A stretch of 64,000 nt of DNA from Kineosporia succinea (GTDB taxonomy: Bacteria > Actinomycetota > Actinomycetes > Actinomycetales > Kineosporiaceae): NCBI RefSeq assembly GCF_030811555.1, contig NZ_JAUSQZ010000001.1, positions 5,763,241-5,827,240 on the forward strand. The letters run 5' to 3'. The notes beneath the pieces are model-generated. The model had not been told where the DNA came from. It saw only the letters and a program-made list of their open reading frames with translations, and searched no databases. Of this stretch, positions 3,953 through 20,724 are shown in pieces. Both the position numbers and the translations under genes were made by a program. Each line of letters starts with the position of its first letter. Within the stretch, counting starts at the first letter, position 1.

Positions 3953-9046
<5,094 letters not shown>

Positions 9047-9148
9047 CTCACTCGTTGAGTTGAGCGCGTAAAGATTGTTCACGTCCACTATGCGGTTCAC
9101 GGGAAACGACCACGCCCACCCACGAGGGTGGCTGGTTGTGCCGGTAGA
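9047..9148 (+). other. 23S-5S spacer with 23S processing arm
   Basis: Bases 9070-9100 are complementary, with few mismatches, to 5834-5863 before 23S (core GTCCACTATGC against GCATAGTGGAC). They form the long stem that RNase III-type processing would cut to release pre-23S. A short hairpin (cacccacgagggtgg) follows before 5S. Confidence 0.75.
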
Positions 9149-9267
9149 GTTACGGCGATCATAGCGGCAGGGAAACGCCCGGTCTCATTCCGAACCCGGA
9201 AGCTAAGCCTGCCTGCGCCGATGGTACTGCACTGGTTACGGTGTGGGAGAGTAGGACATCGCCGGAC
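9149..9267 (+). rRNA. rrf: 5S ribosomal RNA
   Basis: About 119 nt from GTTACGGCGATC to ATCGCCGGAC, whose ends pair as helix I. The internal block CATTCCGAACCCGGAAGCTAAG is the standard 5S loop B/C region. Confidence 0.95.
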
Positions 9268-9574: not shown

Positions 9575-10993
9575 CTACGCCGACGACCCCGGCAACTCGC
9601 GGGCACCAGGCGGCGGAGGCTGCTGCTGTGCCAGGTGCCACAGCTGCTGCAGCAGGGCGCCATCGATGTCGTAGATGCTGGCCTCGGGCCGGTCGGTCGG
9701 CTGACCCACCCCGTGCACCTCGTGATGCAGCTGCTCCATGCGGCGGTCGAGTTGCTCGGCCGCCGCCGCGGCCTCGGTGAGCTCGCGGACCAGGTGGGGC
9801 GGCACCTCGCGGTCGTACTTGTAGAAGATCTTGTGCTCGAGGCTGGCCCAGAAGTCCATGGCGATGGTGCGGATCTGCAGCTCGACGATCACCGGCACCG
9901 GGCCCGTCGACAGAAACACCGGGATCTCGATGATCGCGTGCAGGCTCTTGTAACCGTTGGCCTTGGGGTTGGCGATGTAGTCCTTGGTCTGGATGAGCCG
10001 CACATCGTCTTGCGAGGTGAGGGTTTCCAGCACGCGGTAGGTGTCGGCGATGAAGCTGCAGGTGATGCGCACGCCGGCGATGTCGGTGATGTTCTCGCGG
10101 ATCGACGGCAGGCTGGGGTGGATCCCGCGGCGGGCGACCTTCTCGAGGATGCTCTCGGGCGACTTGAGCCGGGAGTTCACGTGCTCGATCGGGTTGTAGC
10201 GGTGCAGGTGCAGGAACTCCTCGCGCAGCACCGAGACCTTGGTGAGCACCTCGTCGACCGCGAACTGGTATTCCATCAGGAACCGGGTGAAGTCCTCGCG
10301 CATCTGCCGCACGAAGCTCAGCAGCTGCGGGTTGGGCTGGGGTGGCGTCTGGGGCAGGAGCATCACCCCGGTCGAGGCCGAAGGGGCGGCCGGGGCGCGC
10401 CAGAGAGCGGTGACGGTGTCCGTCAGCTGCTCGGCGACCTGATCCCAGCCGGGTTGTGCGGAGGCGTCCTCGGCCAGCAGCCGTTCGTGCCGCATGATCG
10501 CGTCGTCGATCAGGTGCTGCATCATGGCGCGACGCTGGGCGAGCACGTCGGGCGAGAGATGGGGCAGGCAGCGTCCGATGTGCTGGTGCACCAGGTCGGG
10601 CGACTGCGCCAGGTCGGACGACCGCGTCAGGTCGGGCGACCGCGCCAGGTCGGGCGACGTGGCGGCGGGCACCTGCGCACGGAAACGCGCGTACCAGCTC
10701 GGCCGCTCCAGGGCCCGCAGGTGCACGATCACCGAGCTGACCTCGACGTGCACCCATTCGCGCAGGTCGAGCGGATCACGCACGGCTTTGATCAGCTGCT
10801 CCCGCTCGTGGGCGATGTCGCGGGCGTGCCGCTGCACCACGGCTCGCACCAGCTCGTCACGGCTGCCGAAGTGGGCCGTGACGTCGTGCCCGGCGGCCTC
10901 GCTGATGTGCTGCTCGTGCACCGCCTGCACCCCGTGCTCGGCGAAAAGCCGCTCGGCGGCCAGCACCAGGGCATCGCTGGGGTTCTCGCCCAC
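9575..10993 (-). CDS. TetR-family regulator fused to a small alarmone (p)ppGpp synthetase
   Basis: A 472-residue two-part protein. Residues about 5-55 are a TetR helix-turn-helix (AAERLFAEHGV, then AHFGSRDEL), and 60-200 look like a TetR C-terminal helical domain, interrupted by DLARSPDL-type hexamer repeats (113-134). Residues about 225-395 form a RelA/SpoT synthetase domain: NSRLKSPESI, DIAGVRITCSF (Asp304), DYIANPKANGYKSLH (Tyr348) and ELQIRT (Glu371), then WASLEHK. The ATP/GTP-binding and catalytic residues appear present. There is no HD hydrolase domain, so it should only make (p)ppGpp. The GTG start at 10993 has AGGAGG 7 bases upstream. It is convergent with the rRNA operon and divergent from a LacI gene. 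The fusion suggests ligand- or DNA-controlled alarmone synthesis; this is inference. Confidence 0.85.
   Translation of the reverse strand: MGENPSDALVLAAERLFAEHGVQAVHEQHISEAAGHDVTAHFGSRDELVRAVVQRHARDIAHEREQLIKAVRDPLDLREWVHVEVSSVIVHLRALERPSWYARFRAQVPAATSPDLARSPDLTRSSDLAQSPDLVHQHIGRCLPHLSPDVLAQRRAMMQHLIDDAIMRHERLLAEDASAQPGWDQVAEQLTDTVTALWRAPAAPSASTGVMLLPQTPPQPNPQLLSFVRQMREDFTRFLMEYQFAVDEVLTKVSVLREEFLHLHRYNPIEHVNSRLKSPESILEKVARRGIHPSLPSIRENITDIAGVRITCSFIADTYRVLETLTSQDDVRLIQTKDYIANPKANGYKSLHAIIEIPVFLSTGPVPVIVELQIRTIAMDFWASLEHKIFYKYDREVPPHLVRELTEAAAAAEQLDRRMEQLHHEVHGVGQPTDRPEASIYDIDGALLQQLWHLAQQQPPPPGARELPGSSA
10592..10658 (-). repeat. 18-bp in-frame repeat inside the TetR-synthetase gene
   Basis: Three full units and one partial unit of caggtcgggcgactgcgc type encode repeated DL-x-RS/QSP hexapeptides within the TetR C-terminal part. 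The 18-bp period keeps the reading frame. Confidence 0.85.
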
Positions 10994-11120
10994 GCGGGCC
11001 CCTCCTGACGGACTCCGGGGCGGACTCGTCCCACCCTCTTCACTGATTCAAACACGATGCCCCGTGGTTCGGTGCCCCGGGTCAGGATTCGCCCTTTCGG
11101 CACGTGCAAAACTGGGGCGC

Positions 11121-12164
11121 ATGACGACCGGCGTGGACGGGAAGCGCGCACCCCGCGGTGGTAAAGCGGGTCGTATGCCGACGATGGCCGACATCGCCGA
11201 GCATGTCGGGGTCTCGCGTCAGCTGGTCTCCCTGGTGCTGCGGGACGTGCCGGGCCCGAGCGCCGAGTCGCGTGAGCGGATCCTGGCCGCGGCCAGCGAG
11301 CTGGGGTACCGGCCCAACGCCTCGGCCCGGTTGCTGCGCCAGAACCGCACGCATCTGATCGGCGCGGTGTTCGGCATGCGTCATCCGTTCCAGGTGCGGG
11401 TGGTCGAGCGGCTGTTCGTGCGGGCGGCCGAAGAGGGTTTCGGCCTGGTGCTGGGTCCGATCACTCCCGAGCGGGGGACGGACGCGGTGGTCGCCGCCCT
11501 GATGGAGGAGCGGGTCGAGGCGCTGGTCGCGTTCAACCCCGACCCGTCGTCGGACGCGCTGGCCGAGGCCCGTGGGCTGGTTCCGGTGGTGTGGATGGGG
11601 GAGTGGGTCGAGGACGAGTCGGTCGACAACGTGCATGTCGACGAGGTTGAGGGGCTGCGGCTGGCGGTGGAGCACCTGGTCGGGCTGGGGCATCGCGACA
11701 TCGAGTACGTGGGGGCTTTCGCGGGTCGGCTGGGGGCCGACCGCGCCGACGCCTATCGCGCGGCCATGGCGGGAGCGGGTCTGGAGGCCCGGGTGCTGGA
11801 GGCCGACTACACCGAGGAGGGAGGGGCCGAGGCGGCGCGGTGTCTGCTGCGGCGCGAGAAGCGGCCGACCGCGGTGGTGTGTGTGGGCGACCAGTGCGCC
11901 GTCGGCATGCTGGGGGTCTTCGCCCGCTCGGGAGTGGCCGTGCCCGAAGAGATCTCGGTGATCGGTTTCGACGACAGCTATCTGGCGGCGCTGTCGTACC
12001 ACCAGCTGACGTCGGTGCGGCAGAACGTGGAGGCGACGGTGGAGGCCGGCCTGCGCGCGGTGCTCGACCGGCTCGACGAGCCCGGCCGGCCCCGCCGGGT
12101 GACGGCGACGAAGACCGAGCTCGTGGTGCGGAAGTCCACCGGCCCGGTGCGGGCCGCCGGCTGA
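11121..12164 (+). CDS. LacI-family transcriptional regulator
   Basis: A 347-residue regulator. The N-terminal helix-turn-helix reads MADIAEHVGVSRQLVSLVL, followed by the hinge helix (YRPNASARLLRQ) and a periplasmic-binding-protein-like sugar-binding domain ending with the typical ISVIGFDD and LTSVRQN segments. The start is ATG 11121; a run of Gly/Arg precedes the HTH. Its best candidate operators are the tandem palindromes at 12284-12330, just after it and before the Gfo/Idh/MocA operon, which it most likely represses until a sugar-like ligand is present. Confidence 0.9.
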   Translation: MTTGVDGKRAPRGGKAGRMPTMADIAEHVGVSRQLVSLVLRDVPGPSAESRERILAAASELGYRPNASARLLRQNRTHLIGAVFGMRHPFQVRVVERLFVRAAEEGFGLVLGPITPERGTDAVVAALMEERVEALVAFNPDPSSDALAEARGLVPVVWMGEWVEDESVDNVHVDEVEGLRLAVEHLVGLGHRDIEYVGAFAGRLGADRADAYRAAMAGAGLEARVLEADYTEEGGAEAARCLLRREKRPTAVVCVGDQCAVGMLGVFARSGVAVPEEISVIGFDDSYLAALSYHQLTSVRQNVEATVEAGLRAVLDRLDEPGRPRRVTATKTELVVRKSTGPVRAAG

Positions 12165-16395: not shown

Positions 16396-16706
16396 CCATT
16401 CCTGTGCGGCATTGCATCGGAATGACAGCAGTCACCGGCGTCGCCCGGCCGGGAGCGGCACCGGCCGCGGTCGTGTCAGGGGTCCGCGGCCGATCGATCG
16501 TAACGCTCACATTTCGGGCACGGCGGTCATGTCGGCGCAGATGGCGTCCAGCGGTCTCACGCCCTGTGGTGCGGCTTCATTCAGCGGGAGGACGTGGTGG
16601 CCGGCGTGGTGGTGAACGTTCACTTCCCCGGCGGCCGGGTGAGGCTCCCGCCCGGTTCTCAACCTCCGCCGCGGTGCTGCCGAGGAGACCCCGTGCCGAT
16701 CAAGAG
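16396..16706. other. Divergent promoter region
   Basis: It separates the arabinofuranosidase gene (minus) from the GGDEF-EAL gene (plus). On the minus strand, TGTGAGCGTTACG at about 16498-16510 resembles a LacI-type sugar operator half, but symmetry is poor. No clear -35/-10 pair was found. Confidence 0.4.
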
Positions 16707-19478
16707 ATGGTCAGGCACCGGCGGCGTGCGCCGGTGAGCGGGAGTGACCTGCCCGCCTCCCGGACCTGGGGCCCCGGTCGGCTCCGGGCGAGAGGCTCCT
16801 GGTCCGGTCAGCGGGGGCGACCGGTCTGGCAGTCGCTGGCCGTCCTGACCGTGCTGCCCCTGCTCGCCGCCACGGTGATGGGCGGCGTGCTCTTCGACGC
16901 CGCGGACCGGGCGGCCGACCGCGCGCTGCGCGCCCAGCGGCTGGTCTCGGCGGTGGAGCTGCTCGACGGGGCCCGGCGCGCGGTGGATGCCGAGGTGCTG
17001 CCCACGATGCTCATGCGCGTGGTGGAGGACGAGGACCTCGCCGTCGCGGCCGGTTTCAGCCCGGCCCGCGCCGGTGCGCTGCGCGCGACCCAGGCCGCGG
17101 TGGTGACCCAGGCCCGCGAGGCGACCGACCGGGCGATCGACGCGGCCCGGGCCGGGGCCACCGACCCGGACCTGAAGCAGGTCGTGACCCGTGCCCTCAC
17201 GGCCGTCACGGCGGCCCGGGCGGCGGCCGACGGTACCGGTGAGCCACTCGTGGCGGTCGTCGGCGGCTTCGGGCGGGGCGCCTCCGGGCTGGCCGCCGGC
17301 CAGCGCTGGGCGGGCACGGAGGCGGTCTCGGCCGGGCTCGGCTCGCGCAGCGTGGCGTCGTTGCAGGACCTCACCCAGCTGCTGGCACTCAGCGAGGCGG
17401 CCAGCCGTCAGCTCGGTGAGCTGTTCGCCTCCCGTGTGCTGCCCGCGGCGGACCGGCTGCACGCGCAGAGCGGATGGATCGCGTCGTGGGGCACCTACAC
17501 GAAACTGGCCGAGCAGGCCGACGACTTCGTCACCGAGCCGGTGCGCCAGGACTGGGCCGTCTACACCGACGACGCCGCCGTGGCCGCGTTCTCCGACCTG
17601 ATGACCCGCCAGGCCCTGTCCCCGGGGACGGCGGTGCTGCCGACCGGTGCACTGCCCGCCCTCGGCGAGCGCAGCCGGGCCCGGGACGAGGCGCTGGCGG
17701 TGGTGCTGCAGGACGCGGTCGCGGAGGTGTCGGACGCTTCCGGTGACGATCACGCGGCGGCCGAGCGGCACCGCCGCACGACGCTCGCGATCTGCCTGGC
17801 CCTGATTCTCCTCTCGCTCGCGAACGCGGGCCTGATCGCCCGCTGGCTCACCGCGTCCATGCGTTCGCTGGCGGTCGGCGCCCGGCAGGTGAGCCTGGGC
17901 AACCTGGTCGACGTGGCGCCGCGCGGGCCGCGGGAGCTGCGCACGGCCGCGCACGCGCTGTCGGCGGCGGTGGCGGGGCTGCGGCGGGTGCAGGAGCAGG
18001 CCCGGGCGGTCGTGGACGGCAACGCCGAGGAGGCCCTGCGGCAGAAGCCGCTGCCGGGTCCGCTGGGGGACGTGGTGCACGCCTCGGTGGAGCAGATCGT
18101 GGAGAGTTTTCGTGCCCGGGAGGCGTTGCAGGACGAGCTCGCGCACCAGGCCACGCACGACGCGCTGACCGGTCTGGCGAACCGGGCGCAGATCCTGGCC
18201 ACGTTGTCGCAGCTGCTGGCGGGTGAGCCTCCGGCGCGGACCGGGGTGCTGTTCATCGACCTGGACGGGTTCAAGCTGGTCAACGACACCCACGGGCACG
18301 CGGTCGGTGACCAGGTGCTGTGCGAGGTCGCGGCCCGGCTGACGGGGGCGTTGCGGCCGGCGGACGGGGTGGGCCGGTTCGGTGGGGACGAGTTCGTGGT
18401 CACGGTGGAGGGCGCCCACGACGCGGCGGCTCTGATGGAGCTGGGGCGGCGGCTGATCGGTGCGATCAGTTTCTCGGGGCCGCTGGACGTGGGCGGGACG
18501 ACGGTGCGGCAGGTGCGGATCGGGGCCAGTGTCGGGGTGGCGGTGTCGTCACCGGGCAGTACCGCCGACAGTCTGCTGGCCGAGGCCGACATGGCTGCCT
18601 ACCGGGCGAAACGGCTGGGGCGCGGGCGGGTCGAGATCTTCGACGACGACCTGCGGGCCGAGATCACGGAGCGGGCCGCGCTGGAGGTCGCGTTGCGGGC
18701 CGGGCTGGAGGCGGGGGAGCTGCACCTGCACTACCAGCCGGTGGTCGACCTGCGCACGGGGACGGTGACCGGTTACGAGGCCCTGGCCCGCTGGGACCGG
18801 CCGGGGGTGGGGCCGGTGCGCCCGGACGTGTTCATCGCGGCCGCCGAGGCCTCGAGCTTCGTGTGTGACCTGGGCCGGTGGGTGCTGCACGAGGCCACCG
18901 CGCAGGCCGCGGGCTGGCGGGGTGCCTCGATCGCGGTCAACGTGTCGGGCCGTCACCTCACCGATCACCGTGTGCTCGACGACGTGCGCGACGCCCTGAG
19001 CGCCAGTGGTCTCGCGCCGGCGCTGCTGGTCGTCGAGATCACCGAGACGGTGCTCACCGACGACCCCCGGGCCCGTGAGCACCTGCGGATCCTGCGGGCC
19101 GAGGGGGTGCGGGTGGCGATCGACGACTTCGGCACCGGGTTCACCTCGATCAGTGCGCTGGCCGACACCCCGGCCGACATCCTCAAGATCGACCGCAGTT
19201 TCATCGGCTCGGACGACCCGGGGCACCACCAGCTGGCGACGCTGATCGCCCGGGCCGCGCACACGTTCGACCTGCGGGTGGTCGCCGAGGGCATCGAGAC
19301 CGGCGAGCAGCTGGCCCGGGTGCGCGCGGACGGCTGTGAGGAGGCGCAGGGGTACCTGTTCTCCCGCCCGCTGGCGCCGGAGGCCGTGGAACGCCTTCCG
19401 GCGCAGCTCATCTCACCCGATGTGCACGTCCCCGTCCCCCGAGCCCCCGAGGGAGCCCGCCGTGAGTCTCACGCGTAG
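16707..19478 (+). CDS. Membrane GGDEF-EAL cyclic-di-GMP protein with HAMP domain
   Basis: About 923 residues. Transmembrane helix 1 lies near 42-62, a helical extracytoplasmic sensor spans about 65-355, transmembrane helix 2 is near 360-382, and HAMP follows to about 435. A GGDEF domain follows with an intact GGDEF motif near residue 557, then an EAL domain with YEALARWD, DDFGTGFTS and VAEGIET. Both signatures are intact, so it could both make and degrade c-di-GMP. The start taken is ATG 16707; GTG 16734 is an alternative. Its 3' end overlaps the next gene, a solute-binding lipoprotein, by 17 bases, suggesting that the binding protein delivers the signal to the sensor. Confidence 0.85.
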   Translation: MVRHRRRAPVSGSDLPASRTWGPGRLRARGSWSGQRGRPVWQSLAVLTVLPLLAATVMGGVLFDAADRAADRALRAQRLVSAVELLDGARRAVDAEVLPTMLMRVVEDEDLAVAAGFSPARAGALRATQAAVVTQAREATDRAIDAARAGATDPDLKQVVTRALTAVTAARAAADGTGEPLVAVVGGFGRGASGLAAGQRWAGTEAVSAGLGSRSVASLQDLTQLLALSEAASRQLGELFASRVLPAADRLHAQSGWIASWGTYTKLAEQADDFVTEPVRQDWAVYTDDAAVAAFSDLMTRQALSPGTAVLPTGALPALGERSRARDEALAVVLQDAVAEVSDASGDDHAAAERHRRTTLAICLALILLSLANAGLIARWLTASMRSLAVGARQVSLGNLVDVAPRGPRELRTAAHALSAAVAGLRRVQEQARAVVDGNAEEALRQKPLPGPLGDVVHASVEQIVESFRAREALQDELAHQATHDALTGLANRAQILATLSQLLAGEPPARTGVLFIDLDGFKLVNDTHGHAVGDQVLCEVAARLTGALRPADGVGRFGGDEFVVTVEGAHDAAALMELGRRLIGAISFSGPLDVGGTTVRQVRIGASVGVAVSSPGSTADSLLAEADMAAYRAKRLGRGRVEIFDDDLRAEITERAALEVALRAGLEAGELHLHYQPVVDLRTGTVTGYEALARWDRPGVGPVRPDVFIAAAEASSFVCDLGRWVLHEATAQAAGWRGASIAVNVSGRHLTDHRVLDDVRDALSASGLAPALLVVEITETVLTDDPRAREHLRILRAEGVRVAIDDFGTGFTSISALADTPADILKIDRSFIGSDDPGHHQLATLIARAAHTFDLRVVAEGIETGEQLARVRADGCEEAQGYLFSRPLAPEAVERLPAQLISPDVHVPVPRAPEGARRESHA

Positions 19479-20724
19479 AGCGTTCGTGACCGGAGGGTCG
19501 GCCGCCCTGCTGGCAGGGTGTGCGGCCGGGAGCCGTTCGGCCGGGCGTGGCTCCGGCGACCGGCTGGCGTTCTGGTACTGGGACGGCGCGCTGTCGGAGC
19601 CGGTGGTCGGCAGTGTGCTGGCGGGGCTGCGGCCGAGGGCGCTGATCACGGCCACGGTGGTGCCCGGTGACTTCGGCCAGCGCCTGACCACGACGCTGTC
19701 GTCGGGCCACGGGGTGCCCGACATCACCGGGGTCAAGGGGGAGGACATGCCCACGTTCCTGACCCTGGCCAAGTACTTCCTCGACCTGAACGAGCTGGGG
19801 GCGCGGGACGTCGCGGGCTCGTTCGTGGCGGCCAAGTACGCCCAGGCGACCACGCCCGGGGGCAAGCAGGTCGGGCTGCCCATCGACCTCGGCCCGACCG
19901 CGCTGTTCCTGCGCTCGGACCTGTGGGGGCAGGCCGGGCTGCCGACGTCGGTGGCGTCGCTCGCCCGTGAGATGTCCACCTGGGAGGGCTGGTTCGAGGC
20001 CGCGCGCCGGCTGAAGAACCGGCTGCCGGGCACGTTCGCGGTGCGGAACTCGCACGACGTGTTCGGGGTCGCGCTGTCGCAGGAGCCGGAGACGTTCCTG
20101 GCCCGCTCGGGTGAGTTCACCGGTGACGGCGGCGGGGTGCGCCGGGCCTGGCACCTGGCCGTGCGGGCGATCGCCGAGGGGCTGCAGGCGGGCATCTACG
20201 CGGACGCGGCGTTCGGCGCGGCGCTGAGCGACGGGGTGCTCACCGGTCATCTGGGGCCGGCCTGGAACGGCCTGGACATCGCCGGCGCGGCCCCCGGGAC
20301 GTCCGGGACGTGGCGTGTGGCAGCGTGTCCCGGCGGGCCGGGCAACATCGGCGGCTCGTACCTGACGCTGCCCGCGACGTGCCGCAACCCGGACGTGGCG
20401 TTCGCGTGCATCACGGCGATCCTGTCGCCGGAGAACGAGAGCCGGGCCTTCACCGACGCCGCGGTCTTCCCGGCCGTGACCCAGGCCTACTCGCTGCCCG
20501 GGCTGACGTCGGGGCAGGGCTTCTACGGCGGGCAGTCGACGATCGAGGTCTTCGGGCCCGCCGCCGAGAACCTGCCCGACGTGTACGACGCGCCCGGCAA
20601 CTCCGACATCGCCTCCTCGTACTACACCGAGCTGTCGAACGTCGAGGGCGGCAAGAACCCGGAATCGGCCTGGGCGGACGCGGTCTCGGCCGGTCGGCGG
20701 ACCGCGAAGGCGCTCGCGGGGTAG
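19462..20724 (+). CDS. Tat-type lipoprotein, extracellular solute-binding protein
   Basis: A 420-residue family-1 ABC-type solute-binding protein. The N terminus has twin arginines (LTRRAFVTGG) followed by a lipobox (LLAGC), so it is probably exported by Tat and lipid-anchored. The mature part begins LAFWYWDGALSEPV, and PGDFGQRLTTTLSSG follows, typical of sugar-binding proteins. GTG start 19462 has GAGGGAG upstream and lies inside the end of the GGDEF-EAL gene. No permease or ATPase is next to it, so it may be a sensor subunit for the neighbouring c-di-GMP protein rather than part of an importer. Confidence 0.85.
   Translation: MSLTRRAFVTGGSAALLAGCAAGSRSAGRGSGDRLAFWYWDGALSEPVVGSVLAGLRPRALITATVVPGDFGQRLTTTLSSGHGVPDITGVKGEDMPTFLTLAKYFLDLNELGARDVAGSFVAAKYAQATTPGGKQVGLPIDLGPTALFLRSDLWGQAGLPTSVASLAREMSTWEGWFEAARRLKNRLPGTFAVRNSHDVFGVALSQEPETFLARSGEFTGDGGGVRRAWHLAVRAIAEGLQAGIYADAAFGAALSDGVLTGHLGPAWNGLDIAGAAPGTSGTWRVAACPGGPGNIGGSYLTLPATCRNPDVAFACITAILSPENESRAFTDAAVFPAVTQAYSLPGLTSGQGFYGGQSTIEVFGPAAENLPDVYDAPGNSDIASSYYTELSNVEGGKNPESAWADAVSAGRRTAKALAG

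Follow-up and report, generated by a model that had tools for sequence, protein, structure and literature searches.

Control of small alarmone synthetases is mostly attributed to gene expression and to nucleotides or metals. According to an excerpt of Atkinson et al. (PMC3153485), small RSH proteins are in general single-domain, and some actRel members have an N-terminal DUF429. Dual-domain forms are described as well: RelZ (MS_RHII-RSD) of Mycobacterium smegmatis is an actinobacterial synthetase whose extra N-terminal domain is an RNase HII (excerpts of PMC7591505 and PMC3153485), while Tde-SAS of Treponema denticola is a two-domain small alarmone synthetase with C-terminal TPR repeats (excerpt of PMC10434055). 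The SAS of C. glutamicum is the subject of a further paper (PMC5566576, in excerpt).

Here we describe a gene of Kineosporia succinea in which a TetR-type regulator stands in one frame with an alarmone synthetase. The gene lies in a stretch of 64,000 nucleotides, referred to below as the window. The encoded protein resembles RelZ in having an extra N-terminal domain, but this domain is of the TetR type, and in contrast to the C-terminal repeats of Tde-SAS it precedes the enzyme. A full-text literature search, covering few subscription papers or preprints, gave among the matches listed no TetR-alarmone synthetase fusion by title or abstract opening, and papers holding both the whole word TetR and 'alarmone synthetase' likewise included none on such a fusion, judged in the same way. 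We could not find this architecture in print, which agrees with a sequence-only reading of the window that had regarded the N terminus as undescribed among small alarmone synthetases. If the model favoured below is true, a built-in drug-sensor domain would feed a chemical signal directly into (p)ppGpp and would tie xenobiotic sensing to growth control in a testable way.

Architecture of the fusion protein

The fusion gene occupies positions 9575..10993 of the minus strand and encodes 472 aa from a GTG start, with zero internal stops over its 472 codons. It was delimited by its open reading frame, by Pfam and by full-length homologues in two genomes, G003 of the genus Kineosporia and G052 of another family (G000 denotes the window's own genome, G001-G005 the other Kineosporia genomes). 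A Shine-Dalgarno sequence, AGGAGG (11001..11006, minus strand), is located 7 nt 5' of the GTG. The TetR half comprises residues 1-205 (10379..10993), followed by a Pro/Ala-rich linker of residues 206-225 (10319..10378), recognised by alignment, and by a RelP/YwaC-like synthetase core of residues 226-430 (9704..10318), assigned by Pfam, PDB match and alignment; all are on the minus strand. Across the three codon positions of the TetR half the GC fraction is 0.80/0.45/0.91, a coding-DNA pattern. The two-part architecture is well supported: the alignments and both homologues show that the fusion of TetR DNA-binding and ligand domains to a RelA/SpoT synthetase, perceived already from the letters, is real. 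A missed stop or a sequencing error behind it was considered and rejected, as two independent in-frame homologues lack stops, and these also contradict the idea of separate genes.

The Pfam RelA_SpoT domain covers residues 274-395 with 116.7 bits (cut-off 27). The catalytic residues named in the sequence-only reading, D304 (codon 10082-10084), Y348 (9950-9952) and E371 (9881-9883, all minus strand), are invariant together with R275, K277, R309 and K344 in 36 aligned sequences, consisting of the window protein and 35 of 80 synthetase loci from titled genome records, with five TetR-neighbour rows that aligned to the wrong half left out. The closest solved structure is YwaC of B. subtilis (6fgk; E 3e-58, 200.9 bits), with RelQ/YjbM behind it (134 bits, E about 7e-38); the top NCBIfam model is the YjbM one, at 187.9 bits under its cut-off of 320. 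In the comparison with toxSAS/CapRel, all PDB matches to E 0.01 are named GTP pyrophosphokinase or RelA/SpoT-type, and the divergently adjoining gene is of the LacI type. Hydrolase, TGS and ACT domains are absent, a Pfam scan to E 1 giving, besides RelA_SpoT and TetR_N, no more than a chance SPDY match, and no Pfam match in the protein corresponds to the RNase HII domain of RelZ.

The synthetase half thus aligns with RelP/SasA (YwaC) over its whole length and keeps the catalytic residues, but known RelPs are single-domain. Since the fusion has 472 aa with a TetR half, against about 200-230 aa in a single-domain RelP, we regard it as a variant of the RelP-type synthetase. Judging by its intact catalytic residues, this predicted (p)ppGpp synthetase of RelP type should make ppGpp. 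The same genome, a single contig of 8.07 Mb, has three further RelA_SpoT domains; the open frames that hold them are 885, 765 and 613 aa long.

For the regulator half, the lack of a TetR profile match within the first 60 residues had been named as a refuting observation, and the protein comes close to it. Pfam TetR_N aligns to residues 12-52 with 22.5 bits, slightly below the cut-off of 24; the shortfall comes from the loss of the recognition helix and not from non-homology. Both fusion homologues score above the cut-off, G052 with 44.5 bits and G003 with 25.6 bits, the latter match spanning only profile positions 2-30 of 47. The TetR assignment is independent of this match, and stands on end-to-end sequence homology with free-standing TetRs: residues 7-204 align with them throughout, at up to 45% identity and E 4e-39 in a sample of the class, and a profile of the subfamily gives the window protein 236 bits, although the 36 rows of the profile include this protein itself. 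By the same alignments, residues 54-205 (10379..10834, minus strand) form the ligand/dimerisation domain, 48% identical to that of the G052 fusion. PSWYARFxAQ is among the conserved ligand-domain segments kept in the window protein, and by eye one loop of the domain contains a short SPDL-type repeat.

Xenobiotics and natural products are frequent substrates of CYP105 enzymes. The free TetRs related to the window protein frequently adjoin CYP105-like P450 genes, and they are free-standing, whereas the TetR of the window is enzyme-fused and eroded in its DNA-reading strip. A P450 open frame occurs within the fetched stretch at 21 of 33 free TetR loci and is missing from 12, although the loci are not independent, as many come from one genus. 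For the two P450s tested from these loci, CYP105Q4 was the best or second-best solved relative. A mycobacterial TetR-P450 pair is known from the excerpt of PMC4482099, in which Rv1255c belongs to a putative operon with cyp130. In the window itself, one open frame gives a weak, partial P450 match (17.5 bits, E 4.9e-5). By analogy with the P450, MFS and oxidoreductase genes beside its relatives, the ligand of the TetR half would be hydrophobic.

Distribution and descent

The full protein, used as a query at E 1e-3, matched somewhere in 57 of 58 genomes (own included), and full-length matches besides the own genome were confined to G003 (57% identity over residues 7-456) and G052 (58% over 7-458). 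In a sample of the order (396 genomes, at most four candidates scored per genome), 149 genomes matched at E 1e-60, with the TetR half covered in G000, G003 and G052 only; eight further matches aligning from before residue 200 lacked it (best profile E 2.9), and a redrawn order sample of largely the same genomes gave no new fusion at E 1e-108. Within the genus the synthetase is present in six of six genomes, fused in two and free in four (G001, G002, G004 and G005), and the TetR half is therefore dispensable. No synthetase was found at E 1e-30 in the seven other genomes of the family sample. Four of the 57 genomes of the G052 genus matched at E 1e-98, and the TetR half was covered in G052 alone. 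With the TetR half as query, 70 of 394 genomes of the class sample matched at E 1e-12, and at the 30 loci inspected a synthetase was in frame with TetR only in the own genome. Viral contigs searched with the TetR alignment yielded neither a fusion nor a TetR relative. Inspection by eye of the 900 bp upstream of the four free Kineosporia synthetases showed no TetR remnant, and profile searches up to 3 kb from the synthetase at 132 loci gave nothing besides separate TetR genes.

Such separate genes deserve a mention of their own. At no fewer than 5 of the 80 titled loci, a lower bound as they were looked for with one TetR subfamily profile only, a TetR gene of another subfamily is located directly upstream of a free synthetase and in the same direction, so the TetR-synthetase pairing exists as a two-gene arrangement too. 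The pairs are found at L079 (TetR 5276-5968, synthetase from 5974 on), L111 and L114 (Bacillaceae), and L091 and L097 5260-5895 (Rhodococcus). Other TetR genes lie within 3 kb of the synthetase at L082 (divergent), L041 and L070. Directly downstream of the G003 fusion (locus L007, 716-1405, minus strand) there is another TetR gene, separate from it, whose C-terminal domain is of the MftR type.

The two halves of the fusion give different trees. The fused TetR halves, three in all, group as a single clade (97/93); their end branches measure 1.29 for the window, 1.51 for G003 and 0.33 for G052, and the program flags the meeting of two long branches there. Without G003, the window and G052 are still grouped (99/96); without the window, G003 and G052 stand apart in the best tree, the clade not being rejected (p-AU 0.366). 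For the synthetase halves, one clade of the fused forms is rejected (p-AU 7.8e-5; 62 of 124 collected sequences). Here the partners of the window are the free genes of G001 and G004, those of G003 are the free genes of G002 and G005, and the G052 fusion is joined by a free gene of a MAG titled Yaniella; the end branch of the window is 0.046, compared with 1.29 for its TetR half. G052 also possesses a free synthetase, which groups with those of its family, a pattern suggestive of horizontal acquisition of its fusion. The combined trees are explained by one old fusion followed by repeated TetR loss, or by TetR exchange between synthetase genes, and fit both. Each Kineosporia lineage may instead have gained its TetR independently, but the TetR halves group together (97/93), even if the two Kineosporia rows are long.

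Between the window and G003, fourfold sites are identical at 39 of 63 positions in the TetR half (random 0.47) and at 46 of 74 in the synthetase half. Being equally diverged at these sites, both halves are probably of similar divergence age. At the amino acid level, identity amounts to 86 of 190 residues (45%) in the TetR half and 158 of 205 in the synthetase half, and both Kineosporia TetR halves have indels in the ligand domain. With 45% of amino acids kept while fourfold sites are not far above random, the comparison suggests some selection on the TetR half, which appears constrained, much less than the enzyme half.

DNA-reading residues, operators and role of the TetR half

Departures of the TetR half from its free relatives are concentrated in a strip of residues 26-42 (10868..10918, minus strand), predicted to contact DNA by analogy with TetR regulators in general. 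The consensus of the free proteins in this strip is SNRQ..EAAGQ.NN.AV.YH. The window protein has HEQH in place of SNRQ and AHF in place of YHF, both its turn and its recognition helix are shorter, and the conserved SNRQ, N and Y are gone; the helices on either side of the recognition helix are retained. In G003 the turn contains an insertion and the strip has QLF, while the strip of G052 is canonical. Counting columns that 90% or more of the free members conserve (15 in the strip, 49 elsewhere in the TetR half), the window keeps 6/15 in the strip and 38/49 outside it, G003 8/15 and 40/49, and G052 15/15 and 45/49. Free TetRs (n = 33, leave-one-out) depart at 0-3 strip columns, never at more than three. 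Fisher p for strip erosion is 0.010 in the window and 0.041 in G003, values that refer to a strip defined after the alignment had been seen. Loss of the predicted DNA-reading residues in the window protein is well supported.

Candidate operators point in the same direction. The k-mers enriched upstream of free TetRs, with fusions left out, spell AAGTCAAGC/GCTTGACTTA and occur at 16 of 33 loci, about one being expected. The sites are dyads, TAARTCA-N6-TGAYTTA or TAARTCA-N2-TGAYTTA, exact upstream of 18 of the 33 free TetRs. Allowing two mismatches, a dyad is present at 25 of 33 (control mean 0.017 loci in 60 simulated sets), a figure that is a description and not an independent test, because the consensus was drawn from the same loci and the N2 form was set after G052 had been seen. 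These dyad-bearing upstream regions belong to loci L149-L177 except L150, L152, L165 and L168. The dyad is apparently the operator of this TetR subfamily, often adjoining CYP105-like P450 genes.

Genome-wide counts of the N2 form are the better test. The 4.4-Mb genome of G052 has three N2 sites with at most one mismatch and none of the reverse-pattern control; two are in the fusion promoter and the third precedes a paralogous TetR gene. Both promoter dyads (L138, 11524-11539 and 11568-11583) lie inside the 134-bp gap from the ATG of the fusion to that of a divergent MFS gene. Behind the MFS gene at this locus (L138, 11480-16079) come SDR, alpha/beta hydrolase and FAD monooxygenase genes, all divergent from the fusion, and the set is likely an operon for detoxification or efflux that the fused regulator controls. 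DNA binding by the G052 homologue is plausible from its intact strip and these sites. Elsewhere in Kineosporia, two N2 sites precede a TetR gene in G004, G002 and G003 have one each at a P450 gene start, and G001 and G005 have none genome-wide. The single genome-wide N2 near-match of G000 is inside a GC-rich, terminator-like inverted repeat. Within two mismatches neither spacing of the dyad occurs in the 64-kb window, and within three mismatches it is absent from the 300 bp upstream of the fusion in G000 and G003. Of the earlier proposal that sensing or DNA binding could be tied to (p)ppGpp production, the presence of a TetR-type ligand domain is borne out, and DNA binding is not supported for the window protein, whose reading residues are eroded and for which no family operator is found in the window.

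The reading we prefer, to which we give an even chance, is that of a ligand sensor wired to the synthetase, which would still read DNA in G052 and probably serves only as an allosteric or assembly domain in the window protein. A TetR-type ligand-binding and dimerising domain, from a subfamily often adjoining P450 genes, would be tethered by the short Pro/Ala-rich linker to a RelP-type synthetase. In the G052 form a single polypeptide is probably the repressor of its own gene and of the divergent efflux, SDR, hydrolase and flavin-monooxygenase set and also carries the alarmone synthetase, so that one hydrophobic ligand could both relieve the detoxification genes of repression and alter alarmone production. 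In the window form, with its eroded DNA-reading helix, the TetR half would most likely be a ligand-responsive or assembly-controlling domain and not a transcription factor. We infer that the TetR half senses a hydrophobic compound and controls the synthetase, either directly or through its assembly. The model agrees with a fusion that is in frame in three genomes, with a full-length TetR half and invariant catalytic residues, and with losses concentrated in the strip while ligand-domain columns are largely kept. A narrower version, which we hold only tentatively and rather doubt, is a one-component ligand-gated synthetase with a xenobiotic-sensing TetR, in which a specific chemical and not starvation would set the alarmone, the protein also repressing efflux and oxidation genes in G052 and being purely allosteric in Kineosporia. 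The long Kineosporia TetR branches and the ligand-domain indels, however, also suit decay, the TetR half is dispensable in four of six genomes of the genus, and there are only three examples of the fusion.

Several of these observations feed the main rival, in which the TetR half was fused once and is now, in Kineosporia, a decaying remnant on a self-sufficient synthetase. Repeated TetR loss would suit TetR halves that group together while the synthetases do not form one clade, as well as the four free synthetases of the genus, the long TetR branch beside a short synthetase branch, the damaged recognition helix and the many indels. Decay is harder to reconcile with 86 of 190 amino acids kept between the window and G003 despite near-saturated fourfold sites, with damage centred on the strip while most conserved ligand-domain columns are retained, and with the strong Shine-Dalgarno sequence at the start codon that precedes the TetR half; we consider it a distinct but lesser possibility. 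That the window protein, too, is a working ligand-controlled transcription factor and alarmone maker, acting at a different DNA site, is improbable. Its flanking helices are kept and the G052 version is intact with two operator-like sites, but against this stand the shortened turn and recognition helix, the lost SNRQ, N and Y, TetR_N under its cut-off, the absence of a family operator within two mismatches in the window, and the terminator-like setting of the sole N2 near-match in G000. The TetR half might also dimerise and only set the oligomeric state of the synthetase, without any ligand. TetR regulators are dimers, and the linker is short. The excerpt of PMC10434055 reports RelP, RelQ and Tde-SAS to be homotetramers, which would fit such a scaffold. 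Yet the free sister synthetases do without a TetR half, and the kept PSWYARFxAQ-type segments would exceed the obvious need of dimerisation alone; we consider the scaffold unlikely.

The series running from G052, with DNA reading apparently intact and operator-like sites, through Kineosporia, where reading is predicted to be lost, to the TetR-less sisters forms a natural comparison set, addressing how a domain of a transcription factor comes to serve as an enzyme regulator or decays from that role.

Neighbourhood of the fusion gene

A 16S-23S-5S rRNA operon (3953..9267, plus strand) is the convergent neighbour of the fusion gene, which lies 307 bp past the 5S gene. The convergence noted in the sequence-only reading is correct, and its proposed connection with (p)ppGpp control of rRNA is not borne out: Rfam detected no rRNA in the 16-20 kb round the synthetase gene of G052, G003, G001, G002, G004 and G005, nor at loci L035/L036. 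When all open frames of at least 100 aa in the initial 30 kb of the window were compared with the loci of these six genomes at E 1e-15, no common protein emerged besides the fusion gene and frames overlapping it. Meaningful rRNA synteny, for which the sequence-only reading had proposed a survey of homologues, was discarded, the operon not being conserved beside the relatives.

On its other side the fusion is flanked by a divergent gene for a LacI-family regulator (11121..12164, plus strand; Pfam LacI and Peripla_BP_3), lying outside the fusion. Further along the plus strand, positions 16404-20724 hold a 1024-aa frame that by eye is GGDEF/EAL cyclic-di-GMP-like, followed by an ABC solute-binding-like frame.
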